NCBI RefSeq assembly: GCF_007625205.1
Contig: NZ_VMNI01000019.1
Span: 1 to 50,174 of the forward strand
Origin: Denitromonas ohlonensis
Lineage (GTDB): Bacteria; Pseudomonadota; Gammaproteobacteria; Burkholderiales; Rhodocyclaceae
DNA: 50,174 nucleotides
Reading direction: 5' to 3'
A program made the translations under genes and the position numbers. The notes below the pieces were generated by a model. It did no database searches. It was given only the letters and a program-made list of their open reading frames with translations, and was not told the DNA's origin. Every line of letters begins with the position of its first letter. The stretch's first letter is position 1. Positions 2-50,174 of the stretch are shown in pieces.

Positions 2-547
2 AACACCGTGCACGGCGCGCGCCATGTGGTGCTGCGCCAGCTGGTTGAAGAAGTGGGCGAGAGCTGCAACATCACCGCCTTCTCGGGCAGCGAGGTCTTG
101 TATCTGGACCGCGTCGAAACCGCCGCGCCGCTGCGCTTCTATCTGCACCCCGGCTCACGCGTGCCGGCGCACTGCTCGGCCAGCGGCAAACTGTTTCTCG
201 CCCAGATGAGCCCGGCCCAGCGCCGCCGCCTGCTCGCCCATGTGCCGCTTGAGCGCTTCACCCCCAAGACGCTGACCACGCTCGACGCGCTCGACGAAGA
301 GATCGACACGGTCAAGCGCCAGGGCTACGCGCTGGACGACGAAGAATTTCTGCCTGGGCTGATCTGCGCCGCGGTGCTGGTGCCGCGCCAGAACGGCCGC
401 TCGAACATGGGCATCGCCATTCAGGCGCCGATCATGCGTCTGAGCCACGACAAGGTGCTCACGCTGCTGCCGGCGCTCAAGCGCGCCGCCAAGGCGCTGG
501 CCGATATCGAAACGCAGGCAGAGAACGAATTGCAGCACTCGGCCTGA
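2..547 (+). CDS. IclR-family transcriptional regulator, C-terminal part (5' end outside window)
   Basis: The frame is open from the first bases, so the start and the winged-helix DNA-binding domain lie upstream of the window. What remains is the IclR effector-binding (GAF-like) domain. Hallmarks are the ESCNIT segment, the EVLYLDRVE strand, SGKLFLA and the late [13 protein letters not shown] segment. The same landmarks occur in the complete IclR protein at 43862-44716 (ETCNLT, VLYVERV, SGKLFLA, DNEEFVRGM), which confirms the family. The gene runs co-directionally into cobS/cobT about 80 bp downstream and may regulate that cluster. The effector cannot be predicted. Family is certain; the link to the downstream genes is inference. 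Confidence 0.9.
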
Positions 548-627
548 ACGGGGGGAGGTCTCCTGTTCGGGTGAAAACCGACGCCGTGGGCAATGACCCG
601 CGGCGCGCAACCCGAATGGAGAAGCCC

Positions 628-1605
628 GTGACAGACAATGTGATCACCGCGCCGGACAAGCAAGTGTCCGTTCGCAGCGTGTTTGGAATTGATTCCGACC
701 TGATGGTGCCAGCGTTCAGCGAGCGCGACGACCATGTGCCGGAAATCGATGAAGCCTATCGTTTCAACCCTGATGTGACGCTGGCGATTCTGGCCGGCTT
801 CACGCGCGACCGCCGCGTCATGGTGCAAGGCCTGCACGGCACCGGCAAATCCACGCATATCGAACAGGTCGCCGCGCGGCTCAACTGGCCTTGCGTGCGG
901 GTGAACCTCGATGGACACATCAGCCGGCTTGATCTGGTCGGTAAGGACACCATCGTCGTGCGCGACGGCCTGCAGGTGACCGAGTTTCAGGAAGGCATCG
1001 TGCCCTGGGCGCTGCAACGCCCGGTGGCGATGATCTTTGACGAATACGACGCCGGCCGGCCCGACGTGATGTTTGTCATCCAGCGCATTCTGGAGCGCGA
1101 CGGCAAGTTCACCCTGCTCGACCAGAACCGCGTGATCCGCCCGCACCCGTACTTCCGCCTGTTTGCCACCTCCAACACGGTCGGCCTGGGCAATCTGTCG
1201 GGCATGTATCACGGCACGCAAGTGCTCAACCATGCGCAGATCGACCGCTGGAACATTGTCGCCACGCTCAACTACCTGCCGCATGACGAAGAAGTCGCCA
1301 TCGTGCTCGCCCGCGTGCCCGCCAAGAACTACGACAAGGGCCGCAAGCTGATCGCGCAGATGGTGCAGGTGGCCGACCTGACCCGCAAGGGCTTTGCCGC
1401 CGGCGATCTGTCCACGCTGATGTCGCCACGCACGGTGATCACCTGGGCCGAGAACTGCGAGATCTTCCGCAACCCGCCGCTGGCCTTCCGCCTGTCCTTC
1501 CTCAACAAGTGCGACGAAGCCGAGCGCCCCATCGTGGCCGAGTATTACCAGCGCTGCTTTGGTGAAGAGCTGGACGAGTCGTGGATGCGCGAGGCGCAAA
1601 GCTGA
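628..1605 (+). CDS. cobS: CobS-type AAA+ ATPase (aerobic cobaltochelatase subunit CobS)
   Basis: MoxR/CobS-group AAA+ ATPase. In the aerobic B12 pathway CobS and CobT form the ATP-driven motor that helps CobN insert cobalt into hydrogenobyrinate a,c-diamide. Visible motifs are Walker A (GLHGTGKST, about residues 68-76), a Walker B-type IFDEYD segment near residue 137, and the CobS-typical stretches [22 protein letters not shown] and NTVGLGN. The N-terminal [13 protein letters not shown] resembles classical CobS as I recall it. I chose GTG 628 because GGAGAAG lies just upstream and the length (325 aa) is close to known CobS; ATG 616 or GTG 571 would only add N-terminal residues. The stop overlaps the cobT start. 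No cobN or other cobalamin gene is visible, so the partner and substrate here are open. Confidence 0.9.
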
Positions 1606-3344
1606 TGCAGGCGAGTGCGCAGCAGCGCGCCAAGCGTCAGCAGAAGGTGGAGGAGCTTTGCGCCGCCACCCTGCGCGCGCTGACCGGCGATGCCCAACTG
1701 CACTACCGGGGCCGGCGCCTGCACCAGGGCGCGCGGCCGCTGCCCATGCATGCGCCGCATTTGCGCATCGACTCCGATCAGGACGCGTTCGAAGACTGCC
1801 GCGCCGCGGCCGACGGCATGGCCTTGCGGCTGCTGCATTCTGACCCGGAACTGCATCGCAGTCTGGCCCCGGCGGGTGGCGTGCAGCGGCTGGTGTTCGA
1901 GTGGCTGGAGCAGTTGCGCGTCGAAACCCATGTGCCGATCGACATGCCCGGCATGGCCGAAAACTTGCACCACCGCTTCGAAAACTGGTCGCGCACCTTC
2001 TACCGCGAGGGGCTGACCGAGGGGCGCTTCGGCATTTTGCTCTACACCGTGGCGCAGATGAGTTGGTCGCGCCTGATGGCCAAGCCGGTCATGCACGAGA
2101 CCGAGGACTACATCGAGGGCACGCGCGCGTCGCTGGTGAGCGCGCTCGGCACGCCGCTGGCCGGCATGCGCCGCCACCGCGACAACCAGGCCGAGTTCGC
2201 CAAGCACGCGCTGGAAGTGGCGCGGGTGGTCGACGAGACCATGCGCTCCGACATGGCCGACGTCGGTGGCGACGACGCCGAGCGCGACCCCGAGGAAGAA
2301 GACGAAGCCAAGAGCCGCTTCGCGCTGTTGCTCGACTTCGATCAGGACGAAGGCGATGGCAACAACATCGCCGCCGCGACCACCGGCGACAGCAAGGTGT
2401 TTGAAGACGCCAAACAGGCCTACCACGTGTACACCACGCGCTTCGACACCGAGGTGCCCGCCGGCACGCTGGTGCGCAAAGCCCTGCTGCGCGAGTACCG
2501 CGAGCGTGTCGACAAGCGCATCACCGAGCAAGGCATCAACCTGCCGCGCCTGGCGCGCATGCTCGGCGCCATCCTGGCCCGACCGCAGCGCGATGGCTGG
2601 CTGTTTGGTCAGGAGGAGGGGCGCATTGACGGCGCCCGTCTGTCGCAGCTCATCAGTTCGCCGGCTGAGCGGCGTCTGTTCCGGCAAGACCAGTACAAGC
2701 CCTCGGCCGACTGTGTGGTCACGTTTCTGGTCGATTGCTCCGGCTCGATGAAGACCCATTCCGAACCGGTGGCGATGATGGTCGACCTGCTGATTCGCGC
2801 GCTTGAGATGGTCGGCGTCACCACCGAGATGCTCGGCTTCACCACTGGCGGCTGGAACGGCGGCCGGGCGGTCAAGGAGTGGATGGCGCACGGCAAGCCG
2901 GCGCATCCGGGCCGGCTCAACGAAGTCACCCACATGGTGTTCAAAGAGGCCGACCGTAACTGGCGCCGCGCGCGCATCGACATGATGGCCTTGCTCAAGC
3001 CTGACCTGTTTCGCGAAGGCATCGACGGCGAGGCGGTGGACTGGGCCTGCAATCGCCTGCTCGCGCGCAGCGAGGAGCGCCGCATCCTGATCGTGATCTC
3101 GGACGGCTGCCCCGCCGACAGCGCCACCGGCCGTGCCAACGACGAGTTCTACCTCGACAACCACCTCAAGGAAGTGGTCGCGCGGCGCGAGGCGCAAGGC
3201 GCGGTGGAGATCCTCGGCCTTGGCGTCGGCCTCGACCTGAGCCCCTTCTACCGCCGCTGCCTGGCCACCGACATGAGTCAGGCGCTCGACAACGAACTGT
3301 TTTACGACATCGTCCAGCTGATCGGCGGACGCCACCGGCGCTGA
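1605..3344 (+). CDS. cobT: CobT-like VWA-domain protein (cobaltochelatase subunit CobT family)
   Basis: Partner of CobS-type ATPases, 579 aa. The N-terminal half is the CobT-specific region. An acidic linker lies near residues 222-255 (GGDDAERDPEEEDEAK). The C-terminal third is a von Willebrand A domain whose MIDAS signature DCSGSMK (about residue 376, DxSxS) coordinates a divalent metal and binds a client protein. The ATG at 1605 overlaps the cobS stop as TGATG, so translation is probably coupled; an in-frame GTG at 1581 is less likely. The C-terminal segment GVGLDLSPFYRR differs from the GIGHDVTRYYRR form I remember for B12-pathway CobT. With no cobN nearby, this suggests a CobT-like paralogue with another client. 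Family is firm; client unknown. Confidence 0.85.
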   Translation: MQASAQQRAKRQQKVEELCAATLRALTGDAQLHYRGRRLHQGARPLPMHAPHLRIDSDQDAFEDCRAAADGMALRLLHSDPELHRSLAPAGGVQRLVFEWLEQLRVETHVPIDMPGMAENLHHRFENWSRTFYREGLTEGRFGILLYTVAQMSWSRLMAKPVMHETEDYIEGTRASLVSALGTPLAGMRRHRDNQAEFAKHALEVARVVDETMRSDMADVGGDDAERDPEEEDEAKSRFALLLDFDQDEGDGNNIAAATTGDSKVFEDAKQAYHVYTTRFDTEVPAGTLVRKALLREYRERVDKRITEQGINLPRLARMLGAILARPQRDGWLFGQEEGRIDGARLSQLISSPAERRLFRQDQYKPSADCVVTFLVDCSGSMKTHSEPVAMMVDLLIRALEMVGVTTEMLGFTTGGWNGGRAVKEWMAHGKPAHPGRLNEVTHMVFKEADRNWRRARIDMMALLKPDLFREGIDGEAVDWACNRLLARSEERRILIVISDGCPADSATGRANDEFYLDNHLKEVVARREAQGAVEILGLGVGLDLSPFYRRCLATDMSQALDNELFYDIVQLIGGRHRR

Positions 3345-3373
3345 TGCCGGCCTCAATACGGACGAAAAGCCCC

Positions 3374-3748
3374 ATGCCAAACCCCGTGATCAGTTTTGCC
3401 GAGAGCGACGCCGAATGCGTTGACAGCCGACTGGCTGACTTGCCCAATCGCGTGCTTGAAGGCGACCCGCAGCATCGCAACCAACTGCACTACCAAAGCG
3501 CCGACGGTGCACTCATTGCTGGCACCTGGACCAGTACCCCCGGCCGCTGGCACGCCTTCACCGATCGCGACGAGTTCTGCGTCATCCTCGCCGGCCACTG
3601 CCGCCTGATCGCCGACGACGGCACCGCCAAGACCTTCATGGCCGGTGACGCCTTCATGATCCCGAATGGCTTTCGCGGCTACTGGGACGTGATCGAAACC
3701 ACCACCAAACACTACGTCATCCGCAGCTACACCCCCACCGAGGACTAA
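3374..3748 (+). CDS. Small cupin protein (Cupin_3/DUF861-like, COG3450 type)
   Basis: Single-domain beta-barrel cupin of 124 aa. The core runs GTWTSTPGRWHAF, then DEFCVILAGHCRLIADDG, then AGDAFMIPNGFRGYWDV, the pattern of the COG3450/ureidoglycine-aminohydrolase-like cupins. Such proteins bind metal or small ligands, but I cannot assign a reaction. ATG 3374 is used because conserved sequence begins there. An upstream in-frame ATG at 3344 overlaps the cobT stop (TGATG) and could be the real, coupled start, adding ten residues. It sits between cobT and the Lin0512 pair in the same probable operon, four bases from the next start, so it presumably acts in the same process. Confidence 0.8.
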   Translation: MPNPVISFAESDAECVDSRLADLPNRVLEGDPQHRNQLHYQSADGALIAGTWTSTPGRWHAFTDRDEFCVILAGHCRLIADDGTAKTFMAGDAFMIPNGFRGYWDVIETTTKHYVIRSYTPTED

Positions 3749-3751
3749 ATC

Positions 3752-4105
3752 ATGGCCCTGAAAAAAATGGTGGTGCAGTTCGGCATGGGGACCTCGATCC
3801 GCAGCCGCAACTACACTCAGGCCGGCGCACGCGCGATCCGCGACGCGCTCTGGCATCACTCGCTCAACGTCGCCGATGCCTTCGGCTTCCCCCGTACCGC
3901 GATGGTCATCGACGCCGTCGTTGCCGTGCAGCGCCCCGATCTGGTCGACGAAGCCGAGCTGATCAAGGTGTTTCCGTACGGGCAGGTCACGGTTCGCGTG
4001 ATCGAAGGCGGGCTCGACGTACCCAAGCCCAGCGGCGACAGTATCAGCGTCATCGCCAACGCCGCCATCACCGTTTCCTTCGACATGGAGGCCGCCCATG
4101 ACTGA
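3752..4105 (+). CDS. Lin0512-family protein, divergent paralogue
   Basis: Protein of 117 aa in the Lin0512 family (TIGR02058/PF09585), for which I know no established function. The family hallmark near the N-terminus is GxGxDxHG followed by a helix rich in A and R. Here the motif is degenerate (GMGTSIRS), but the next helix (YTQAGARAIRDALWHHS) and the C-terminal VIANAAITVSFD strand align with the neighbouring copy. It starts four bases after the cupin gene and overlaps the next gene by eight bases. Tandem unequal copies suggest a hetero-oligomer in which this subunit has lost the conserved site. That role is inference. Confidence 0.75.
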   Translation: MALKKMVVQFGMGTSIRSRNYTQAGARAIRDALWHHSLNVADAFGFPRTAMVIDAVVAVQRPDLVDEAELIKVFPYGQVTVRVIEGGLDVPKPSGDSISVIANAAITVSFDMEAAHD

Positions 4106-4469
4106 AAAACGCATCATCCTCGAAATGGGCACCGGCAACGACCTCTACGGCGAGGACTACACCAAGGCCGCCTGCCGCGCCGTGCAGGACGCGCTGCACC
4201 ACTCGTCCATCCTGCTGTTTCGCAGCCTGGACATCGACCACCGCGACATGCGCGTGCAAGTCACCATCGGCGTGCAAGAGCCCGACAAGGTCGACACCGA
4301 TGCGGTCGCCGACACCCTGCCGCGCGGCTACGCTGAAGTGAAGGCGGTGAAGGGCGGGTTGAACGTGCACGACCCCGAGCAGGGCACCACCCACATCATC
4401 GCCACGGCAGCCGTTGAAGCTTTCGTGCCGCTCACCGCGGGCGCCTGGCGCTTGAGCGAAGGCGTGTGA
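4098..4469 (+). CDS. Lin0512-family protein, motif-bearing paralogue
   Basis: Protein of 123 aa, second Lin0512-family member. It keeps the N-terminal motif almost intact as GTGNDLYG (family GxGxDxHG, with Y for H), followed by YTKAACRAVQDALHHSS and a C-terminal IIATAAVEAFVPL strand. It overlaps the upstream paralogue by eight bases, which implies translational coupling and matched production. It is the last gene of the CobS-CobT-cupin-Lin0512 set and is followed by a strong hairpin terminator. Biochemical function is unknown; the context points to assembly or metal-related work with CobS/CobT, but this is inference. Confidence 0.78.
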   Translation: MTEKRIILEMGTGNDLYGEDYTKAACRAVQDALHHSSILLFRSLDIDHRDMRVQVTIGVQEPDKVDTDAVADTLPRGYAEVKAVKGGLNVHDPEQGTTHIIATAAVEAFVPLTAGAWRLSEGV

Positions 4470-4513
4470 TGACGTGACGCTCGCCGACACGGTGTGGGCG
4501 GCAACAAAAGGGC

Positions 4514-4560
4514 AGGGCGTATCGCTGGTGAAGTGGCCCGGCGATACGCCCTTTCTGTTT
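4514..4560 (+). terminator. Rho-independent-type terminator after the Lin0512 genes
   Basis: Perfect 12-bp inverted repeat (AGGGCGTATCGC at 4514-4525 and GCGATACGCCCT at 4541-4552) with a 15-base loop, followed by a T-rich tail (TTCTGTTTG). It lies about 45 bp after the last gene of the cobS-Lin0512 set and marks its end. Confidence 0.75.
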
Positions 4561-4634
4561 GTCTCTTGCGCGACCGTGCTCGCCCGACCGCGTCAGCATG
4601 CGGCCGGCTACGCTGAACGACGCAGCCCGCGTCG

Positions 4635-7696: not shown

Positions 7697-8413
7697 TCAG
7701 GCGCGGGTGCGCTGCACCGTGGCGGCGATCATGCGGGTGAGGCTGGTGAGGTCGAATACGGGCAGACCGAAACGGCGGTGGAGCTCGGGGGCAAAGTGCG
7801 ACAGGTCGGTGCATTCGAGCACGAGTGCGCCGATGTCGGGGGTGTCGGCGAGCAGGCGTTCGACGACGCCGCCGAGTTCGGCGGAGAAGACATCCATGTC
7901 CAGGTCGTTGCGTTTGCCGTGGAGGATGACGTCGGCGAACTGCGGCTGAAGCTGCATGCCCGCGATGGCGATGGGCTCGTCGGCGATGCCGGCGCCGCGC
8001 AGGTGGTCGGGGCTGAGGGCCTCGCTGTTGGCGACGACCACGCCGACCTTTTTGTGGCTGCCGAGCATGCGTGAGACGAGCGGCACCTGGAGCAGGCTGG
8101 ACATGAAGACGGGCACGCTCACGGCGTCGGCGATTCGCATCTGATGCAGCGCGAGAAAGCCGCAGCTACCGGTGATGGCGCGCACGCCTTCGCGTTCGAG
8201 CTGACGGGCGGCATCGATGAAGGGCGCGAGCAGGGCCGGATCGCGCTCACGGATGAGGCGGTCGACGGTGGCGCCCCTGACGGTGTGGTAAAGCACCGGG
8301 AAGTCGAAGCTCGCCGCGTATTTGATGTGCCCTTCGGGTTTGGGAAAGAAGGACTCCAGCGAGATCACGCCGAGCGGGATGCCGTAGGTGTTGAAGCCGC
8401 CTTGAAGAATCAT
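7697..8413 (-). CDS. Aspartate/glutamate racemase-family protein
   Basis: Protein of 238 aa of the Asp/Glu/hydantoin racemase superfamily, which uses two cysteines for proton transfer. Both candidate catalytic cysteines are present: SCG in ITGSCGFLALHQ (about residue 84) and ECT in VLECTDLSHFAPEL (about residue 200). It is the last gene of the minus-strand operon, 36 bp after the FAD dehydrogenase gene. With the dehydrogenase, RidA and the solute transporter it probably interconverts stereoisomers of an imported amino or hydroxy acid so the dehydrogenase can act. The exact substrate is unknown. Confidence 0.85.
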   Translation of the reverse strand: MILQGGFNTYGIPLGVISLESFFPKPEGHIKYAASFDFPVLYHTVRGATVDRLIRERDPALLAPFIDAARQLEREGVRAITGSCGFLALHQMRIADAVSVPVFMSSLLQVPLVSRMLGSHKKVGVVVANSEALSPDHLRGAGIADEPIAIAGMQLQPQFADVILHGKRNDLDMDVFSAELGGVVERLLADTPDIGALVLECTDLSHFAPELHRRFGLPVFDLTSLTRMIAATVQRTRA

Positions 8414-8449
8414 GAGGGATCGCTCTGGTGAGATGAAGGCTGTGTTGGC

Positions 8450-9694
8450 TTAGCCGAATCGCGCGGGCGAGAAGGCGGCGAGTGCCGATTCGTTTGCAGG
8501 GTCTTGAATGCTTTCGGCGACCAGCTTGCCGGTGGCTGCCGCGAGTGTCAGTCCCACGTGGCCGTGCCCGAAGGCGACCATGAAGTTGGGGTGGCCCGGC
8601 AGGCGGCCGATGACCGGCAGGGAGTCGGGGGTGGAGGGGCGGCTGCCGACCCAGGTCGATTTGACGGGGGGGGTGTGGCCGATCATCTGGGTGGCGACGT
8701 CGAGAATGATGCCAGTCTGCCGCTCGCCCAGCGGCGCGTCGGGTTTGGCGAACTCGGCCATGCCGGCGATGCGCACGCCCTCGTTCATGGGGGTCATGAA
8801 CACGGCACGGTCGAGCCAGCCCACCGGGCGGCTGATGCGCCAGGCGGCGGTGTCGAGCATCAGGTGATAGCCGCGTTCGCTGACCATCGGGATGCGGGTG
8901 CCGAGCTGGGCGGCGAGTTTGGCGCCGGCCACGCCGGTGCAGATCACCACGCGATCGAAGTCATGACTGGCTTGCGCGGTCTGCACGCGGCAGCCGGTGG
9001 GCGTGTCGCTGAGCGCACTGACCGACTCTTGCAGCAGCCGGCCGCCGTGGGCCACAAAGTGGCGGGCGTAGCGGCGGCTGATGTCGATCGGGCTGACGGT
9101 GAAGCGGGTGTCGGGGTAGAGCACGCCGCCGGCGTGGAAGGGCGCGAGGTCGGGCTCCAGCGCGCGCACCTCATCGGCGCTCAGGGTCTGGATGTTGACG
9201 CCTTGCGCTTTGCGCTCGCTCAGGTGGCCGGCGAGGGCGGCGTCGAAGCCGTCGCGCGTGCTGAACAGCGCCAGGCAGCCTTTGTGCTGAACGAGATCGC
9301 TGGCGCCGGTGTCGCGTAACAGCACCTCGTCGGCGGCCGGCGCGATCATCTGGAGTGCGGTGAGCGCCTCGCGGCCGTGGCGGTAGTTGGCGGGCGTACA
9401 GGCTTTGACAAAGTGCCAGCCGTAGGCCGTCAGCTGCGGTGCGTAGCTCGGCTGCAGAGACAGCGGGCTGGTCTTGTCGAGCAGCATGCCGGGAATCTTG
9501 CGCAGCTGGGCAAAGTTGGCCATGGGCAGCCGGGCGTAGTCGGCGAACAGGCCAGCGTTGCCAAACGAGGTGCCTTCGCCGGGCGCTTCGCGGTCGATCA
9601 GGGTGACCTTGGCGCCGGTGCGTTGCAGCCACAAGGCGGTCGACAGGCCAACAATGCCTGCGCCGATGACCGCGATGTTGTGGGGGGCGTTCAT
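8450..9694 (-). CDS. FAD-dependent D-amino acid dehydrogenase-like oxidoreductase (DadA/DAO family)
   Basis: Flavoprotein of 414 aa with an N-terminal Rossmann FAD site (IAVIGAGIVGLSTALWLQRTG, residues 7-27) and the DadA-like SFGNAGLFADY segment. The C-terminal DAO-family end (GSRPSTPDSLPVIGRLPGHPNFMVAFGHGHVGLTLAAATGKLVAE) binds the flavin. It would oxidise a D-amino or N-substituted amino acid to the imino acid and pass electrons to the respiratory chain. Its start is three bases from the ridA stop, so the two are made together: RidA would remove the reactive imine. It is clearly different from the dadA at 28000-29253. Substrate is inferred only from the operon. Confidence 0.87.
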   Translation of the reverse strand: MNAPHNIAVIGAGIVGLSTALWLQRTGAKVTLIDREAPGEGTSFGNAGLFADYARLPMANFAQLRKIPGMLLDKTSPLSLQPSYAPQLTAYGWHFVKACTPANYRHGREALTALQMIAPAADEVLLRDTGASDLVQHKGCLALFSTRDGFDAALAGHLSERKAQGVNIQTLSADEVRALEPDLAPFHAGGVLYPDTRFTVSPIDISRRYARHFVAHGGRLLQESVSALSDTPTGCRVQTAQASHDFDRVVICTGVAGAKLAAQLGTRIPMVSERGYHLMLDTAAWRISRPVGWLDRAVFMTPMNEGVRIAGMAEFAKPDAPLGERQTGIILDVATQMIGHTPPVKSTWVGSRPSTPDSLPVIGRLPGHPNFMVAFGHGHVGLTLAAATGKLVAESIQDPANESALAAFSPARFG

Positions 9695-38907: not shown

Positions 38908-40194
38908 TCAGCCCGGCGCCGGTATCAGTCCAAGCGACAGCCACGGGATGAAGGCGATGATCAGCCAGGAGATGATCAGTCCGGTCATGTACATCACCGC
39001 GAACTTCACCAGCTTGGCGTAGGGGATGCCGGTGACGCCGCTGGCCACGAACAGGTTGAGGCCGAAGGGCGGGGTGATGAAGCCGATGGCGGCGCCGACC
39101 AGGAAGATCACCGAGAAATGCACCGGATCGACCCCTGTGGCCACCGCGATGGGCGCCAGGATGGGGGCGAAGATGACGGTCACCGGCAGGCTCTCCAGGA
39201 TGCAGCCGGCGGCCAGCACGATGGCCATGCACACCAGCAGCACGACGATCTCGCCGTCACCGAACCAGGCCACGAAGGCTTGCACCGTCTCGGCCGCGCC
39301 GAGCAGGGCAAAGACTTGCTGCATGACGATGGAGATGGCGATCATCGGTGCCAGCATGCCGGTGAGCTGGCCGGAGCGCAGCAGGATGTCGGGCAGCGCC
39401 TTCCACTTGATTTCACGCGTGATCAGCAAACCGGCGATGAGGCAGAAGCCGACGGTGATCGCCGCTGCCTCGGTGGGCGAGAAGATGCCCGAGTAGATGC
39501 CGAAGATGACGATGAAGATCGCGAAGAAGCCGAGGTAGGCGCTGCGTGCGGTGCGCAGCACGCGGCCCATGTCGAGCGGCGTGACCGAGCCCCAGCCGTG
39601 CTTGCGGCACATCCACCAGCACACCAGCTGCATGGCGATCACCATCAAGAAGCCAGGCAGGATGCCGGCGACGAACAGGTCGGAGATCGACAGGTTCATC
39701 AGGAAGCCATAGACGATGAAGATGATCGATGGCGGGATGATGATGCCGACCGTACCGCCGGCGGCGGCCGTGGCCGCGGCGAAGCGGGTGTCGTAACCAT
39801 CCTTGACCAGCAGCGGATGCATGATGCCGCCGATGGTGGCCGTCGTTGCCGAGTTGGAGCCCGAGATGGCCGCGAACAGGCCGCAGGAGCCGATGGTGGC
39901 CAGGCCGAGACCGCCACGCATCCAGCTCAGGCAGGCGTGGGCGAAGTTGGCCAGGCGGGTGGCGATGCCGGCGGCGGCGATCAGGTCACCGGTGAGGATG
40001 AACAGCGGCAGTGACAGCAGGCCGAAGAAGTTGAGGCCTTCGAACAGCGTGACGCCGATGTTGGCCAGTGTGAAGTCGATGACGATCGAGACGCCGGTGA
40101 CCCAGAAGCCGATGACCAGAAAGATCGGTACGCCGACCAGGAACAGGATGCCGACACCCAGGGTGACGAGCGAAATAAGCAGTGTTTGGTCCAT
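38908..40194 (-). CDS. dctM: TRAP transporter large permease (DctM family)
   Basis: Membrane protein of 428 aa with about twelve helices. Characteristic segments are LPLFILTGDLIAAAGIATRLANFA, GSNSATTATIGGIMHPLLVKDGYDTRFAAATAAAGGTVGIIIPPSIIFIVYG and the C-terminal FGLNLFVASGVTGIPYAKLVKF. It forms the sodium-driven channel with DctQ and receives ligand from DctP. The start is four bases after the dctQ stop. In context it probably imports isethionate, as the IseKLM-type TRAP systems do; that is inference from the neighbouring GMC dehydrogenase and xsc. Confidence 0.93.
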   Translation of the reverse strand: MDQTLLISLVTLGVGILFLVGVPIFLVIGFWVTGVSIVIDFTLANIGVTLFEGLNFFGLLSLPLFILTGDLIAAAGIATRLANFAHACLSWMRGGLGLATIGSCGLFAAISGSNSATTATIGGIMHPLLVKDGYDTRFAAATAAAGGTVGIIIPPSIIFIVYGFLMNLSISDLFVAGILPGFLMVIAMQLVCWWMCRKHGWGSVTPLDMGRVLRTARSAYLGFFAIFIVIFGIYSGIFSPTEAAAITVGFCLIAGLLITREIKWKALPDILLRSGQLTGMLAPMIAISIVMQQVFALLGAAETVQAFVAWFGDGEIVVLLVCMAIVLAAGCILESLPVTVIFAPILAPIAVATGVDPVHFSVIFLVGAAIGFITPPFGLNLFVASGVTGIPYAKLVKFAVMYMTGLIISWLIIAFIPWLSLGLIPAPG

Positions 40195-40817: not shown

Positions 40818-42044
40818 TCAGGCGCTCTGCCACCAGCGGCGGGGCTTCACATCGGTGGCGGCCATGTCTTTGGGGATTTCGCGCGCGATGGCGTAGATTT
40901 CCTTGTACACATCCTGACCGCCCGACATCTTGTTGAGACGCTCGCGCCACTCTTCCCACGGCTTCGGTTGGTACTCGGGCGAGCACATTTTTTCGGCCTT
41001 GAGAATTTCGGCGTCGGACAGCGTCGCAACGCGCACGCCGTTCTTGCCGAACTCGGTGTTCGGACCCGGATTGGGTGCGGCGCCGACGACTTCGATCAGC
41101 GCTCGTTCCTGTTCGCGCTGAGTGTATTGCTGTGCGTCGTAAGCGGTTTCCATCACGATGTCACGCAGTGTGGAGGGCAGTTTTTCGAAGGTCTTGTTGT
41201 TCATGGCGGTGTGTTCGGTACCGCAGAAGAACTTCAGATCCACCGCTTGTGACAGCACCGGCGACATGTTGGCGTAGGCGGCGGCGCCCATCCAGGTTTC
41301 TGCGCCGTCGATCAGGCCTTGCTTGAGGCCGTCGAGGGTTTCCTCCCAGGCGAGCGGGATCGGGTTGAGATTCATCAACTGCATGGCGATGCGGCCCAGC
41401 TGGGTGCCGGTGACACGGTTCTTGGTGCCGGCGAGCTCGTCGATGCTGGTGACCAGTGGCTTGTCGGCGAACTTCTTGCCCAGCATGATGCCGCGCAGCT
41501 CGCAGTGGGTGTAGAGGAACTGGATGTTGTGCAGCTTGCGCAAGGGTTCGCGCAGCAGCTTCTCGCTCTTCGGGTGATAGAAGAAGTGATGCTGGGCCGC
41601 GCGCGACGGGAACATGTAGGCGAAGTCGAGCACGTTGTAATACGGTGCCGAGCCGGCCGAGTTTTGGGTGCTGGCGGAGTACAGATCGACGATGCCTTGT
41701 TGGGTTTTCTTGACGCAGTCGAGCTGGTTGCAGATGGCGTTGCTGCCGATGAATTCGATCTTCATCGCGCCGTTGCTGCGCTGCTCCAGTTGCTGGGCGA
41801 ACCACAGCTGGCCCGACTCCTGAATCTTCAGGTTGTTTTCGTTAAAACCCGATGCGCCAAACTTGAGCGTCACCAGCGGGGTGCTGGCGGCACGTGCATC
41901 GGCGTTTTTCGAGGCTGCGTGGGCGACGCTGCTGAGTGTCAGCGGGCCGGCGACGGTCGCCGCGGCAAAGGCGGTTGACGTCAGACCGTAGCGACTCGCA
42001 ATGCGCAGGAATCCACGACGATCGAGAGTGTTGTCGTTAGCCAT
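40818..42044 (-). CDS. dctP: TRAP transporter substrate-binding protein (DctP family) with Tat signal
   Basis: Periplasmic receptor of 408 aa. The N-terminus has a twin-arginine signal ([13 protein letters not shown]), then a hydrophobic core ending AHAASKN, so it is exported folded. The mature part has DctP landmarks: [40 protein letters not shown] and [44 protein letters not shown] 42044 is chosen because the twin-arginine region follows directly. It lies 71 bp behind the GMC dehydrogenase gene. Ligand predicted from context is isethionate or another C2 sulfonate. Confidence 0.92.
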
Positions 42045-42115
42045 TTGAGTGTCTCCTCTGGGTGGCAGGGCGGGCATGATTGCCCTTGTGAAACGTTTTA
42101 TAGGTATCGCGATGT

Positions 42116-43711
42116 TCAGCGCTTGTCGGCCAGGATCATGTCGGCCGCTTTCTCGGCGATCATGATCGTTGGCGCGTTGGTGTTGCCCGAGACCAGCTCC
42201 GGCATGATCGAGGCATCGACCACGCGCAGATTGCCCAGCCCGTGCACCTTAAGGCGTGCGTCGACCACCGCCATCGGGTCATTCCCCATCTTGCAGGTGC
42301 CGGCCGGGTGGTAAATGGACTGGCTGAAGCGGCGGGCCGCGTCGAGCAGTTCGTCGTCGGTCTGGAACTGCCGGCCGGGCACGAACTCGTCGATGATGTG
42401 TTTCTTGAGTGAGGGCGCCTCGGCAATGGCGCGGGCCACCTTGATGCCGCCGATCACCACCGGGTGGTCGCGTTCATCCGACAGATAGTTGGGCTGGATG
42501 GCCGGATACTTGAGCGGGTCGGAGCTGGTGATGCGCACATGGCCGCGGCTGAACGGGCGCAGCTGGCAGACCGAGGCGGTGAAGGCCGAGAACGGATGCG
42601 CGCCTTCGCCCGGCTTGTCGGCACTGAGCGGCTGCATGTGGAACTGGATGTCCGGGCGATCCACATCCGGGCCCGAGCGGGTGAAGATGGTCACCTGGCT
42701 GGCGGCCAGCGTCAGCGGGCCGGTGCGGTTGAGCATGTACTGCATGCCGATCCACAGCTTGTTGATCGGGTTGTTGACCTCGTCATTGAGCGTTCGCTCG
42801 CGGGTCTTGAGGACCAGACGGACCTGCAGGTGGTCTTGCAGGTTCTCGCCGACGCCGGGCAGGTCGTGAAGCACCGCGACGCCCGCTTTTTGCAATACCT
42901 CGGCCGGGCCGACGCCGGAGTTCTGCAGAATCTGCGGTGAGCCGATGGCGCCCGAGGCCAGAATGACTTCGGCCTTGGCGCGGGCTTGCTGCAGCTTGCC
43001 GCCCTTCATGTATTCCACGCCGACGGCGACCTTGCCTTCGAACAGCACGCGGGTGGTCTGCGCGCGGGTTTCGACGATCAGGTTGTCGCGGCTACGCGCC
43101 GGCTTCAGGAAGCCCTTGGCGGTGCTCCAGCGGAAGCCCTTGTGGGCGGTCTGCTGAAAGTAACCCACGCCTTCCTGTACCGCGCCGTTGTAGTCGTCGT
43201 TGTAGGGGATGCCGATGTCTTTGGCCGCCGCGATGAAGTGGTCGGCGATCGGGCGGCGCAGGCGCAGGTCAGAGACTTTCAGCGGGCCGCCGACGCCGTG
43301 GTATTCGCTCGCGCCGCGCTCCTGGTCTTCGGACTTCTTGAAGTAGGGCAATACCTCGGCAAAGCTCCAGCCCTCGTTGCCCAGCGCAGCCCAGCGGTCG
43401 TAGTCTTCGTGCTGACCGCGTACATACAGCAGGCCGTTGAGCGAGCTGGAGCCGCCCAATACCTTGCCGCGCGGCCACTGCAGCTGACGTCCGGCGATGC
43501 CGGCATCGGCCTCGGTCTTGTAGCACCAGTCGTACTTCGGGTCGTGCATGGTCTTGAAGTAGCCGACCGGGATGTGAATCCACGGGTTGTTGTCCGGGCC
43601 GCCCGCTTCGAGCAGCAGGACGCGGTTGGCCGGGTCGGCCGACAGGCGATTGGCCAGTACGCAGCCGGCAGAGCCAGCACCGACCACAATGTAGTCAACG
43701 TCGATGGACAT
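42116..43711 (-). CDS. GMC-family FAD oxidoreductase, probable isethionate dehydrogenase (IseJ-like)
   Basis: Flavoprotein of 531 aa of the glucose-methanol-choline family. The FAD-binding start is [21 protein letters not shown] (residues 7-27); GMC signatures [21 protein letters not shown] and [18 protein letters not shown] follow. The catalytic His segment is HPAGTCKMG, and the end is [19 protein letters not shown]. Such enzymes oxidise primary alcohols. Beside a TRAP transporter, an IclR gene and xsc/pta, it fits the isethionate dehydrogenase that makes sulfoacetaldehyde for Xsc. Choline or another alcohol remains possible. ATG 43711 has GGAGACGAG upstream. Confidence 0.9.
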
Positions 43712-43774
43712 GTTTCTCGTCTCCTGGGGTTCGGTCGATGACACGGCGTGCCCTACCGAAAATCTAGTTATAAA

Positions 43775-43861: not shown

Positions 43862-44716
43862 ATGAAACGAAACCCGGACGAGACGAACCAGAATCGCACT
43901 GCAACACCGATTGAGCCCGTTTTTGACGATGTGGAAGACGCGGCCACCTCGGGCGCCAATGAGGACATCCGGCGCTTGCGCCCGCTCACCGTGCTGGAGT
44001 TGCTGACCCACTCACCGCAGCCGCTGACGCTGGCGCAACTGGCGCTTCAGATGCAGGTGCCCAAGAGCACGCTGATGCGGCTGCTGCATTCGATGGAGGC
44101 GCAGGGTTATGTGCTGCACATGCCGGCCGACCGCGGTTATGTGACCGGCACGCGCTCGGTGGCGCTGGCGCTCAACACCTTGCGCGGGTCAAACATGCGC
44201 CGGGAGTGTCGGGCGGTGCTGCGCGCTCTGGTGCGGCGCCTGGGCGAGACCTGCAACCTCACCGTGCCCGACGCCGGGCGGGTGCTCTACGTCGAGCGGG
44301 TCGACACCGCCGAGCCGCTGCGCATGTATGTGCAGCCGGGCACCTGGGTGCCCATGCATTGCACCGCTAGCGGTAAGCTGTTTCTGGCCTCGATGTCATT
44401 GCTTGAGCGGCAGGCGGTGCTCGCGCACATGCCGCTCCCGCGCTCGTCGCCGCGCACCATCACTGACCGGGCCGCGCTGGAAGTCGAGCTGGACCGCATC
44501 GCCAAGCGCGGCGTCGGCATCGACAATGAGGAGTTCGTGCGCGGCATGATCGCCGTCGCCGTGCCGGTGCGCGACCACGAGGGCAAGCTGGTGGCGGCCA
44601 TCGCCTGTCACGGGCCGAGCGCCCGCGTGTCGCTCGAGGACTTGCTCGGCAACGTGCCGCAGATGCGCACCGCTGCCGAACTCATGCGTGATGTGTTGCT
44701 GCCGCGCGAGGCGTGA
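43862..44716 (+). CDS. IclR-family transcriptional regulator of the GMC/TRAP operon
   Basis: Protein of 284 aa. A polar N-terminal extension (residues 1-36) precedes the winged helix-turn-helix (about 38-100; LRPLTVLELLTHSPQPLTLAQLALQMQVPKSTLMRLLHSME). The effector-binding domain follows (about 115-275; GETCNLTVPDAGRVLYVERVD and SGKLFLASMS). It is divergent from the GMC-TRAP operon with a palindromic candidate operator between, so it is the likely regulator, possibly sensing isethionate or sulfoacetaldehyde. It is related to the partial IclR protein at 2-547 but clearly distinct. Confidence 0.93.
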   Translation: MKRNPDETNQNRTATPIEPVFDDVEDAATSGANEDIRRLRPLTVLELLTHSPQPLTLAQLALQMQVPKSTLMRLLHSMEAQGYVLHMPADRGYVTGTRSVALALNTLRGSNMRRECRAVLRALVRRLGETCNLTVPDAGRVLYVERVDTAEPLRMYVQPGTWVPMHCTASGKLFLASMSLLERQAVLAHMPLPRSSPRTITDRAALEVELDRIAKRGVGIDNEEFVRGMIAVAVPVRDHEGKLVAAIACHGPSARVSLEDLLGNVPQMRTAAELMRDVLLPREA

Positions 44717-46713: not shown

Positions 46714-47472
46714 TTACTGAAGGGCGCTGACTGCGGAGGCGATCAGGCTCAGACCAATCAGGATCAGTACGCTGAAGGCGATGCGCCTGAGCGTGGTCGG
46801 TGCGACCGGGGGCGGGTAGCGTCGCCCGGCAAAGGCGGCCCCTGCGACCAGCACGAAGGCGAAGCCGGTGAGCAGCCAGACCTCGGTGGTGAGCCCGCCC
46901 TGGGCGCCGACGAACACGGTGCGGCTGGCCGAGGTAAAGGTGAACACCAGCAACAGCATGCTGCGCACCGCGGGCAGTGCCATCGGTTGCCGATAGAAAT
47001 GGAAGATCACCGGCGGACCAGCCATGCCGAACAGGCCGCCAAAAAGACCCGCGAGCACGCCACTGACGAAGAAGCTGCGGTTGGGCGAGCGTTCGGCCAG
47101 CTGGGTGGGGCGTAGCGCAAAGACGATGCCGCTGTAGGTGATCACGACGCCGAGCAGCAGCTTGAGTGCGGTGGCCGCGACCGCGCTGAGATAGTCGAGC
47201 AGCAGCACGCCGGCGACAATCGCCGGCACCACGCCGATCAGCACCGCGCGGGCCGCCGGCCAGTCGATGAGATGCAGGTTCCCGCGCAGCGCGATCGCGC
47301 TGTTGGTCAGCGCCATCAGGCTGACCACCGCCGCCACCACCGGCAGCGGCGCCAGATCAAAGCCGCTCGCCGCCCCCATCACGATCATGCCCAGTCCAAA
47401 ACCGGTGACGGTCTGGAAATAGGTGCCGATGGCGAAGAAGGCCAGCAGGGCGATGAGGGCGGGATCGGGCAT
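46714..47472 (-). CDS. TauE/SafE-family sulfite/anion exporter
   Basis: Membrane protein of 252 aa with about eight helices. The start ALIALLAFFAIGTYFQTVTGFGLGMIVMGAASGF and the repeat segment SGVLAGLFGGLFGMAGPPVIFHFY are the two TauE/SafE hallmarks. It would export the sulfite or sulfate released by Xsc. It starts five bases after the pta stop, so the pair is one transcription unit. Substrate assignment rests on the xsc-pta context. Confidence 0.9.
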   Translation of the reverse strand: MPDPALIALLAFFAIGTYFQTVTGFGLGMIVMGAASGFDLAPLPVVAAVVSLMALTNSAIALRGNLHLIDWPAARAVLIGVVPAIVAGVLLLDYLSAVAATALKLLLGVVITYSGIVFALRPTQLAERSPNRSFFVSGVLAGLFGGLFGMAGPPVIFHFYRQPMALPAVRSMLLLVFTFTSASRTVFVGAQGGLTTEVWLLTGFAFVLVAGAAFAGRRYPPPVAPTTLRRIAFSVLILIGLSLIASAVSALQ

Positions 47473-47477
47473 GCCGG

Positions 47478-48491
47478 TCAGGCCTGGGCTGCGGCGGCGC
47501 TGTGGCCTTGCACCACGGTCACGGCGATCACATGGAACACGTCCTCTGCGCTGCAGCCACGCGACAAGTCGTTGGCCGGCTGGCTCAGGCCTTGCATCAG
47601 CGGGCCGATGGCGACCGCGCCGCCGACCCGCTCGGCCAGCTTGTAGCCGATGTTGCCGGCTTCGAGATTGGGAAAGATCAGCACGTTGGCGTTGCCTTTG
47701 ACCTGTGAGTCCGGCAGTTTGCGGTTGGCGATTTCAGCGACGATGGCGGCGTCGAGTTGCACGTCTTCGTCAATCGCCATGGTCGGGCGCTGTGTCTTCA
47801 CGCGGCGCGCGGCCTCGACCACCTTGTCCACGGCCGCATGTCGGGCGCTGCCGCGTGTGGAGAACGATAGCATTGCCACGCGCGGCTCTTCCATCAGCAG
47901 GTCGCGCGCGCTGTCGGCGGCGGCCATGGCGATTTCCGACAACTCTTCCGCATTCGGATCGACCACCAGCCCGCAGTCTGAAAAGATCAGCCCGCCCTTG
48001 AGCGAGTGGAAGGGCTCGCACATCATCATCAGGAAGAAGCTGGAGATCAGCTTGAAGCCGGGCTTCACCCCCAGAATCTGGATGGCCGCGCGCACCACAT
48101 CACCCGTGGTGTGGACCGCACCCGACACGGTGCCATCGGCGTGGCCGGTCTTGACCAGCAAATTGGCGCAGATCAGCGGCTGGGCGGCCTGTTCGGCGGC
48201 CTGCTCGCGGGTCATGCCTTTGTGGCGACGCAGTTCGAATAGGGCGTCGGTCAGCTCGGGCATGAGTGGCGAATCGGTCGGGTCAACAAAGTCGACGCCG
48301 TCCAGCGGCAGGCCTTCCTTGGCGGCGAGCGCTTCGGCGTTGGCCCGGTTGCCAACCAGAATGATTCGGGCGATGCCTTGCTGGGTAGCGCGGACGGCTG
48401 CGGTCAGAACACGCGCGTCGTCGCCTTCGGAGAGGGCGATGCGGCCCGGTGCTTTGCGGGCCTGCTCGATGATGCGATTCAGTGCTTTCAT
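47478..48491 (-). CDS. pta: Phosphate acetyltransferase, short form
   Basis: Enzyme of 337 aa converting acetyl phosphate and CoA to acetyl-CoA and phosphate. It has only the PTA/PTB catalytic domain (LNRIIEQARKAPGRIALSEGDDARVL, HADGTVSGAVHTTGDVVRAAIQILG, FSTRGSARHAAVDKVVEA, PNLEAGNIGYKLAERVGGAVAIGPLMQGL), without the N-terminal extension of long forms. ATG 48491 sits nine bases after GGAG; ATG 48497 is too close to it. Located between xsc and the TauE/SafE gene, it would convert the acetyl phosphate made by Xsc. Confidence 0.95.
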   Translation of the reverse strand: MKALNRIIEQARKAPGRIALSEGDDARVLTAAVRATQQGIARIILVGNRANAEALAAKEGLPLDGVDFVDPTDSPLMPELTDALFELRRHKGMTREQAAEQAAQPLICANLLVKTGHADGTVSGAVHTTGDVVRAAIQILGVKPGFKLISSFFLMMMCEPFHSLKGGLIFSDCGLVVDPNAEELSEIAMAAADSARDLLMEEPRVAMLSFSTRGSARHAAVDKVVEAARRVKTQRPTMAIDEDVQLDAAIVAEIANRKLPDSQVKGNANVLIFPNLEAGNIGYKLAERVGGAVAIGPLMQGLSQPANDLSRGCSAEDVFHVIAVTVVQGHSAAAAQA

Positions 48492-48540
48492 GATCATCAG
48501 CTCCAGTGTCGGGTGACGGGGGAGCCCGTCAGCCAACCGA

Positions 48541-48655: not shown

Positions 48656-50174
48656 TTAAACGTAGTCTTTGTACTTGTCGAGGTGACGCACCGGCTTGGA
48701 CAGCGCATCGCGGCGGAACGGGTCGCCCAGCTCGCGGGTACACATGATCTCGATGATGGTCGTCTTGCCCTCGTTCATCTGCATGTCGATGGCCTTCTTC
48801 AGTGCCGGGCCCACGTCCTCGATCTTGTCGACCGTGATGCCCTCGGCGCCCATGGCGCGGGCGATCTCGGCAAAGGAGGTGTTGTCCAGCTCACCGGCGA
48901 CGAAGCGACGGTTGTAGAAGTCGACCTGGTTCTTCTTCTCGGCACCCCACTGACGGTTGTGGAAGACCACCGCCGTGACCGGAATGTTGTGACGCACGCA
49001 GGTCATGGTTTCCATCAGGCTCATGCCCCAGGCGCCGTCACCGGCGTAGGAGATGGCCGGGCGATCGGGGGCCGCGGCCTTGGCACCGATGATGGTCGGG
49101 AAGGCGTAACCGCAGTTACCGAAGCTCATCGCGGCGAAGAAGGAGCGCGGCTCCTCGAAGCGCAGATAGCTGTTGGCCACCGAGTTGATGTTGCCAATGT
49201 CGGTCGACACCATCGCACGCGGCGGCATCGCCTTCTCCAGCTCGCGCAGCACCTGACGCGGGTGCAGGTAGTCGCCGCCCTGGAAAGTCTTCTCTTTCGC
49301 GTTCTCCTCGATCATGTCCAGGCTGAACGCATCCTTCTCGTGGGTCCACTCGTCGAGCTCCTTCTCCCACGCGGCCTTCTCGTTGGCGATGATCGCGGCG
49401 CGCTCGCCACGGTTCGCGTCACACACCAGATCCTTGCCCGCCAGACGGCTGGTCAGCGCAATCGCCGAGGCCTTCGCGTCGCCGCAGATACCCACCGAGA
49501 TCTTCTTCACCAGACCCAGCATCTTGTTGTCCGCGTCGATCTGAATGATCTTCGCCTGCTTGGGCCAGTAGTCCATACCGTGCTGGGGCAGCGTGCCGAA
49601 GGGGCCCAGACGCGAACCGAGCGCGATGACCACGTCGGCCTGCGCCATCAGCTTCATCGCCGCCTTGGAACCCTGGTAGCCCAGCGGGCCGCACCACAGC
49701 GGGTGGCTGGCCGGGAAGGAATCGTTGTGCAGATAGCTATTGACCACCGGCGCACCCAGGCGCTCGGCCAGTGCCTTGCACTCTTCGATCGCACCCGACA
49801 TCACCACACCACCGCCCGAGATGATCACCGGGAACTTGGCCGTGGCCAGCAGCTCGGCCGCCTCGTTCAGCGACTGCTCGCCGCCGGGGCCGCGATCCAG
49901 ACGCGAAGGCTTCGGAATCTCGCAGGTGATCTCGCCATAGAAATAGTCACGCGGAATGTTCAGCTGCGTCGGGCCCATCTCGCTCATGGCGCGATCAAAG
50001 CAGCGACCCGTGTACTCGGCCATCCGGGCCGGATGCGTCACATGGCCCTGGTACTTCGTGAACTCCTGGAACATCGGCAGCTGGTTGCACTCCTGAAAGC
50101 CGCCCAGACCCATCGTGCCCGTGCCCGTCTCCGGCGTGATCATCACCACCGGGGTGTGCGCCCAGTAAGCGGCC
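48656..50174 (-). CDS. xsc: Sulfoacetaldehyde acetyltransferase (5' end outside window)
   Basis: Thiamine diphosphate enzyme that cleaves sulfoacetaldehyde with phosphate to acetyl phosphate and sulfite. The frame is open to the window edge, reading AAYWAHTPVVMITPETGTG, so the N-terminal ThDP-pyrimidine part is missing only because the window ends. The visible part has the central domain (about PVIISGGGVVMSG) and the PP domain with the ThDP/Mg motif GDGAWGMSLMETMTCVRHNIPVTAVVFHN. The segments GFQECNQLPMFQEFTKYQGHV, FGNCGYAFP and NRQWGAEKKNQVDFYNRRFVAGEL are typical of Xsc. It is the central enzyme of isethionate/taurine degradation and leads into pta and the TauE/SafE gene, though a strong terminator separates it from them. 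Confidence 0.95.
   Translation of the reverse strand, partial: AAYWAHTPVVMITPETGTGTMGLGGFQECNQLPMFQEFTKYQGHVTHPARMAEYTGRCFDRAMSEMGPTQLNIPRDYFYGEITCEIPKPSRLDRGPGGEQSLNEAAELLATAKFPVIISGGGVVMSGAIEECKALAERLGAPVVNSYLHNDSFPASHPLWCGPLGYQGSKAAMKLMAQADVVIALGSRLGPFGTLPQHGMDYWPKQAKIIQIDADNKMLGLVKKISVGICGDAKASAIALTSRLAGKDLVCDANRGERAAIIANEKAAWEKELDEWTHEKDAFSLDMIEENAKEKTFQGGDYLHPRQVLRELEKAMPPRAMVSTDIGNINSVANSYLRFEEPRSFFAAMSFGNCGYAFPTIIGAKAAAPDRPAISYAGDGAWGMSLMETMTCVRHNIPVTAVVFHNRQWGAEKKNQVDFYNRRFVAGELDNTSFAEIARAMGAEGITVDKIEDVGPALKKAIDMQMNEGKTTIIEIMCTRELGDPFRRDALSKPVRHLDKYKDYV

Follow-up and report, generated by a model that had tools for sequence, protein, structure and literature searches.

Several described machines pair an AAA+ ATPase with a protein that carries a von Willebrand factor A (VWA) domain. 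In the cobaltochelatase CobNST, the AAA+ ring protein CobS and the VWA protein CobT are encoded side by side. In the Rubisco activase CbbQ-CbbO, a MoxR-type AAA+ motor works with a VWA adaptor, and the genes lie near the enzyme served; CbbQO is described as removing inhibitors from Rubisco and docking via the VWA metal site, and the same is predicted for similar systems (PMC4660213). NorQ-NorD, also a MoxR AAA+/VWA pair, drives metal insertion into the enzyme that it serves, nitric oxide reductase (PMC13036017). Known MoxR/VWA pairs thus act on an enzyme that is encoded nearby (PMC4660213, PMC13036017).

We analyzed a stretch of 50,174 nucleotides from Denitromonas ohlonensis, called the window below, which makes up the entire contig C1; the assembly comprises 40 contigs and 4.42 Mb and is rated 100% complete. 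Its CobS is closely similar to that of CobNST. The locus differs from that system in that CobN is missing in 15 of 28 genomes carrying this type of CobT, in a separate CobT clade, in its linkage to xsc, the gene of sulfoacetaldehyde acetyltransferase (Xsc), an enzyme that frees sulfite from taurine-like compounds, and in the motifs GVGLDL and DCSGS, which most rows of the clade have in place of GIGHDV and DNSGS. Unlike CbbQ-CbbO, the pair belongs to the CobS and CobT families and has a thiamine diphosphate enzyme as its putative client by linkage. Most loci are also without a metal link, in contrast to the metal insertion described for NorQ-NorD (PMC13036017).

The left-end operon encodes a probable MoxR-type AAA+/VWA pair

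On the plus strand, the first 4.5 kb of the window carry a truncated iclR gene, then cobS and cobT, and after these the cupin gene and the Lin0512 pair; a strong hairpin closes the series.

2..547, plus strand: C-terminal part of iclR, truncated at the contig end (PF01614, 127.7 bits)
616..1605 (frame open from 571), plus strand: cobS, AAA+ ATPase (PF12556, AAA_5; Walker A GLHGTGKS, Walker B MIFDE)
1605..3344, plus strand: cobT of the Xsc-linked clade, as placed in the tree, putative VWA adaptor (PF06213, PF11775; MIDAS DCSGS)
3374..3748 (another in-frame ATG at 3344), plus strand: Cupin_3 gene (PF05899, 74.7 bits)
3752..4105, plus strand: linA, Lin0512 protein A (PF09585, 100.9 bits, above the gathering cut-off of 23.4)
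4098..4469, plus strand: linB, Lin0512 protein B (PF09585, 119.6 bits, above the same cut-off of 23.4)
4500..4563 (within 4498-4566), plus strand: hairpin and U-rich stretch, likely terminator (fold -35.9 kcal/mol, z -5.0)

The first-pass annotation had described a tight operon in which cobS and cobT are joined with a cupin gene and a pair of Lin0512 genes, with an IclR gene in front and a strong terminator at the end. Sequence and family matches bear out both the order and the joins: the cobS stop TGA (1603-1605) has one base in common with the cobT ATG at 1605, the cupin ATG lies at 3374 with an in-frame ATG at 3344 that touches the cobT stop, 3 bases stand between the cupin stop and linA, and linA runs 8 bases into linB (4098-4105). 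The preceding gene is an iclR by its PF01614 match and, because the window is the whole of contig C1, is cut by the contig end; its product is 78-79% identical to the IclR that adjoins cobS in loci L009 and L031 (L and G numbers denote loci and genomes). The terminator is made likely by the fold energy and z score of the hairpin and its U-rich stretch; a simple terminator scan did not list this hairpin and gave 6 other sites, with 3.5 expected.

The AAA+ protein, with intact Walker motifs, adjoins a VWA protein with an intact MIDAS motif, the arrangement of a MoxR-type pair, and we take CobS to be a member of the MoxR clade. Further along the window, at 7697-9694 on the minus strand, an Asp/Glu/hydantoin racemase-type gene adjoins a gene for a D-amino-acid dehydrogenase-like FAD oxidoreductase.

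Sulfonate genes lie at the right end of the window and on a second contig

Sulfonate genes (xsc, pta, tauE, iseJ-like, and TRAP genes) occupy the minus strand at the right end of the window, together with an iclR gene on the plus strand.

38908..40194, minus strand: TRAP transporter large subunit (open frame; named from reading the sequence)
40818..42077, minus strand: TRAP transporter binding protein (open frame; named from reading the sequence)
42116..43714, minus strand: GMC oxidoreductase, iseJ-like (PF00732, PF05199)
43862..44716, plus strand: second iclR-type regulator (open frame; 43% identical to the left IclR)
46714..47472, minus strand: tauE-type exporter (PF01925, 74.7 bits)
47478..48536, minus strand: pta, phosphate acetyltransferase (PF01515, 378.6 bits)
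48656..50173, minus strand: xsc, first copy, N terminus cut by the contig end (TIGR03457, 896.5 bits over 85-579, above the equivalog cut-off of 676.4)

The product of 42116..43714 is presumably an IseJ-like isethionate dehydrogenase. A second xsc lies at the end of a 3.5-kb contig, C11, which also carries a thiC fragment; 1442 of its last 1505 bases are identical to the first copy. In Azoarcus sp. L1K30 (L031), the order is thiG, yeiH, xsc, iclR, cobS, cobT, linA, linB. Because this locus has the xsc-iclR-cobS-cobT-linA-linB order, C11 likely adjoins the left end of the window. Each of the near-identical xsc copies is interrupted by a contig end (window 50173; right end of C11, L101), so the xsc repeat sets the assembly's contig ends.

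The window CobT belongs to a clade apart from the B12 cobaltochelatase

The window CobS scores 556.3 bits against TIGR01650, whose equivalog cut-off is 558.55, and matches solved CobS (PDB 9uka and others) at E 2.4e-148. CobT reaches 304.6 bits against TIGR01651, far below the equivalog cut-off of 759.05. It is the only CobT of its genome, and a PF02514 search of that whole genome found no CobN.

The CobN search was extended to 40 hand-picked genomes carrying Lin0512, 38 of them reached via 38 of the 80 Lin0512 loci described below and the others being G143 and G258. In this set, CobT was taken as window-type when it scored 134-194 bits against PF11775; G285 was included with two fragments, scoring 81 and 59 bits. 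CobT was of the window type in 27 genomes, scored 338-350 bits in 10, and occurred in G258 as two copies of 277-303 bits; the PF11775 search found no CobT in G279 and G284. CobN was absent from 14 of the 27, which with the window's own genome makes 15 of 28 (nine isolates, five MAGs, and the own genome). The other 13 have CobN, but never close by: 12 carry it on a different contig, and in one it is 134 kb away. All 11 genomes with a high-scoring CobT among the 40 have CobN.

In a CobT tree of 70 rows, made by a quick search and containing several long branches and one outlier row, the 44 window-type rows are set off by a branch with SH-aLRT 99 and a stem of 1.39, and 25 B12-signature rows lie apart; the window CobT does not group with B12-type CobT. 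The "Xsc genome" label on this tree is true for 43 of the 44 clade rows at best, because L043 (G298) and L028 (G293) lack Xsc at E 1e-120, the latter having only xsc pieces at contig ends. An early observation that the C terminus of CobT differs from the B12-pathway form proved correct: the segment GVGLDLSPFYRR of the window CobT marks the clade apart from B12-type CobT, at the branch with SH-aLRT 99. Besides the window, GVGLDL followed by S or G is found in 37 of 43 clade rows, other CobT rows having mostly GIGHDV, and the MIDAS motif DCSGS in 42 of 43, with DNSGS in most other rows; L155, outside the clade, also has DCSGS. Both CobT types are present in G265.

The missing CobN, the low TIGR01651 score, and the separate CobT clade led us to reject an ordinary cobaltochelatase. 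Together with the recurrence of the gene order in other genomes (see below), they uphold the proposal of a separate AAA+/VWA machine that is not the CobNST chelatase.

xsc is the most constant neighbor of window-type CobT

We compared the layout of 34 of the 44 window-type-CobT loci, those with flanks of 5 kb or more to either side. Within 7.5 kb, xsc was present in 28 of these loci, followed by iclR (27), pta (25), a TauY-like FAD oxidoreductase (20), and Lin0512 (13). This makes xsc, which the first-pass annotation did not bring up although the window itself has it, the most constant neighbor; six of the 34 had no xsc within this distance. Thirteen of the 34 were drawn from the surveys below, and nine of these had xsc and nine had pta. 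The orientation of xsc to cobT is divergent, convergent, or co-directional, and because layouts vary, the xsc-cobT link has outlived rearrangement. The feeder genes vary as well, with a TauY-like oxidoreductase and TauR in Halomonadaceae, IseJ-like proteins in some loci, and SauS/SauT-like proteins in L009, L018, and L198 (the names SauS, SauT, TauY, TauR, and IseJ are assumed or given by similarity). The step common to these varied feeder sets is Xsc.

A COG0523 GTPase was considered as a constant partner and rejected, being within 7.5 kb in only two of the 34 loci; the metal insertion role suggested earlier for this machine is thus not indicated. Some sulfonate loci have a COG0523 GTPase gene followed by an amidohydrolase gene beside them (L089 11627-14244, L010 6426-8898, and L027 223-2221).

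Window-type CobT co-occurs with one type of Xsc

Genomes of the order and of the class were surveyed without the window locus as bait, and the types of CobT and Xsc were set by bit score. Among the 399 genomes of the order, 49 have Xsc. The high type comprises 14 genomes, 13 with scores of at least 1020 bits and the own genome, whose two truncated copies were counted here because they were placed in that clade of the Xsc tree. Window-type CobT is present in 12 of these 14 (the exceptions are G545 and G731) and in none of the 35 genomes with other Xsc, one of which has a B12-type CobT. The twelve are spread over six family codes. The distance from xsc to the CobT VWA domain is 1.0-3.1 kb in nine of the twelve, 21-28 kb in two, and 45 kb on the same contig in the own genome, which has its second xsc on C11. 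Fisher tests of CobT against Xsc type, uncorrected for relatedness, gave 9.9e-10 when limited to the Xsc carriers and 2.9e-19 for all genomes of the order, the latter with G658 and G522 counted as CobT without Xsc. These two (94-104 bits, no Xsc) were rejected as window-type CobT; their loci, L239 (G658) and L240 (G522), hold a further CobS/CobT-like subfamily at about 32% identity.

In the class survey of 369 genomes, Xsc was found in 22. Window-type CobT occurs in five genomes, at 107-193 bits, and each of them also has high-type Xsc; another 13, whose CobT_C matches are weak (at most 62 bits), were counted as neither type. cobT and xsc lie on different contigs in two of the five, G265 and G047. 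G042 and G183, of one family, have high-type Xsc without any CobT match. Because G545, G731, G042, and G183 do without it, CobT is not strictly needed for high-type Xsc. Beside the high-type xsc of these four genomes, no other AAA+/VWA pair was recognized by eye; G183 has a ClpS/ClpA-like pair, so named by reading, upstream of xsc. G298 has window-type CobT without Xsc at E 1e-120, and its assembly ends 310 bases before cobS. Other Xsc types, e.g. in roseobacters, occur without window-type CobT.

On the Xsc tree, where most labeled rows come from baited loci, the CobT label changes 3 times compared with a shuffled mean of 14.9. The Xsc C-terminal tail KYKDYV was rejected as a handle for the motor because L187, L188, L200, and L201, without window-type CobT, keep a similar tail. 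In the open-licence PMC literature, no paper appeared to link sulfoacetaldehyde or Xsc with a von Willebrand protein or cobT.

CobS-CobT as a possible remodelling machine for the Xsc step

The travelling of this CobS-CobT branch with Xsc suggests a dedicated ATP-driven helper machine for the sulfonate pathway. In our judgment, the odds are even that CobS and CobT form a remodelling machine of the MoxR-type AAA+/VWA kind and work for the Xsc step by which C2 sulfonates (taurine, isethionate, and sulfoacetate) are broken down, not for B12 cobalt insertion. CobS would be the ATP-driven ring, and CobT the adaptor that docks on the client through its VWA metal site. Judged by position and co-occurrence, the direct client is most probably Xsc itself, which would be remodelled for activation, cofactor loading, or repair, with the Lin0512 pair and the cupin as putative optional accessory proteins of some lineages. 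The products of pta and iclR, nearly as constant in the loci, are also possible clients by linkage, a regulator being an unlikely one.

It seems somewhat unlikely to us that the machine instead matures another pathway protein, be it Pta, a transporter, the FAD oxidoreductase, or a molybdenum sulfite dehydrogenase, and owes its place near xsc to gene clustering. Such a role would fit the presence of pta in 25 and of the TauY-like oxidoreductase in 20 of the 34 loci, the togetherness of pta, cobS, and cobT in G047, where xsc is on a separate contig, and the metal insertion by NorQD (PMC13036017). However, a molybdenum enzyme is near in only seven of the 34 loci, and the genome-wide counts cover xsc alone among these pathway genes.

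Xsc is a thiamine diphosphate enzyme that releases sulfite. Thiamine is cleaved by sulfite (PMC8839250); another review describes its loss as a conversion to the disulfide (PMC5753639). A more specific form of the proposal that Xsc is the client, which we put forward tentatively and consider unlikely, is that CobST is an Xsc activase, an AAA+ repair machine swapping out sulfite-damaged thiamine diphosphate. Xsc makes sulfite in the same site that holds its cofactor; CobST would open Xsc, and the damaged cofactor would be swapped out, much as CbbQO clears inhibited Rubisco.

Matches to thiO, thiG, or thiC at 33% identity or more over >100 residues were counted as thiamine genes. They are present in 11 of the 44 window-type-CobT loci (L021, L024, L031, L034, L050, L053, L080, L193, L194, L225, and L227); among all other fetched loci (1.84 Mb; L208, which is L080 again, set aside), a thiamine gene is found in L014 only, a Halomonas Lin0512 locus from a genome without Xsc and CobT matches. 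Seven of the 11 loci are from Halomonadaceae, so at most three independent lineages have thiamine genes; a binomial estimate of this enrichment was set aside because it takes no account of relatedness. thiC is on C11 of the own genome beside the second xsc, thiG in Azoarcus and Aromatoleum, thiO in the Halomonadaceae loci, one of them also with thiC; G670 and G610 have both thiO and a thiG-like gene. Against the ThiO family model, with a cut-off of 250.8 bits, L021 scores above it (303.2) and L225 below it (218.3); in L225, a ThiG-like gene adjoins the ThiO candidate. Thiamine genes in loci of three lineages would fit a higher thiamine demand.

The Lin0512 pair is probably not the obligate client of CobST

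In the open-licence PMC literature, we found no paper on any member of Lin0512 (PF09585 / TIGR02058) or on PDB 3c8l. Both window proteins score above the Pfam cut-off, and a profile of five Lin0512 proteins matches 3c8l, described as FtsZ-like, at E 3.4e-24; here the genes form a two-gene pair adjoining CobST. R27, D31, and H35 are invariant in 40 aligned Lin0512 proteins. Because LinB keeps D15, D20, and K23, which are missing from the window's LinA, it may be the ligand-binding partner of the pair.

The loci compared belong to the 80 nearest of at least 558 relatives and are a sample of the nearest, because the query favors LinB-like members. All 80 have the linA-linB pair, and single Lin0512 genes are found in G143 and on an Azospirillum plasmid. 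CobS-CobT stands beside the pair in 20 of these 80, though not in the roseobacter/SAR116 loci among them, so the gene order does recur elsewhere.

That CobST is a metal-insertion or maturation machine with the Lin0512 pair as its client, as the first-pass annotation had proposed, now appears quite improbable. The adjacency in 20 of the 80 nearest loci and the single cobS-cobT-cupin-linA-linB operon of the window are what one would expect of such a client, but PF09585 is absent from three of the five class-survey genomes with window-type CobT (G224, G047, and G265), in ten roseobacter/SAR116 genomes with the pair the only full-length CobT gene is of the B12 type, and pairs without window-type CobT also occur in G258 and G279. 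We therefore rejected the pair as an obligate client: since it is optional in CobT genomes and present in roseobacters without window-type CobT, CobST probably does not depend on it as client.

In G275, G278, and G296, the pair occurs with a TauY-like oxidoreductase, with or without the cupin; CobT is on another contig in G278 and G296 and about 19 kb away, apparently on the same contig, in G275. Besides its B12-type CobT, G307 (Leisingera) has a short second CobT match at C9:60940-61557 (162 bits, 289-aa frame). L014 (Halomonas urumqiensis) has kept the Lin0512 pair, tauE, and a pta remnant in a genome with no Xsc or CobT match, which looks like loss of the module.

Finally, it is very improbable that CobS-CobT still inserts cobalt into B12, together with CobN or another chelatase standing in for it, and has come to lie near xsc through a chance of regulation: CobS is just 2 bits short of its equivalog cut-off and matches solved CobS, and 13 of the 28 genomes have CobN, but CobN is absent from the other 15, nine of them isolates, is elsewhere on other contigs (12) or 134 kb off (one), and CobT lies far below its cut-off and in another clade.

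Significance and side observations

The CobS/CobT genes annotated as cobaltochelatase in Halomonas, Azoarcus, and Burkholderia relatives probably carry the wrong name and are part of organosulfonate breakdown, one of the routes in the sulfur cycle. We know of no enzyme of the class of Xsc that needs an AAA+/VWA activase. If Xsc is the client, the pair would be such an activase for this class, and the reason may be self-inflicted sulfite damage. For part of its range, Lin0512, a family without known function, can now be set in the context of a pathway.

On a Pandoraea plasmid (L094, 4254-9677), CobS-CobT lies directly behind ureG, beside urease genes; this CobT has the B12-type signature, yet again is not beside CobN. 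A CobT match was also found in 941 plasmid records, most of them in Klebsiella, Escherichia, and Acinetobacter; the matches listed cover about half of the query at about 30% identity and are mostly hypothetical proteins.
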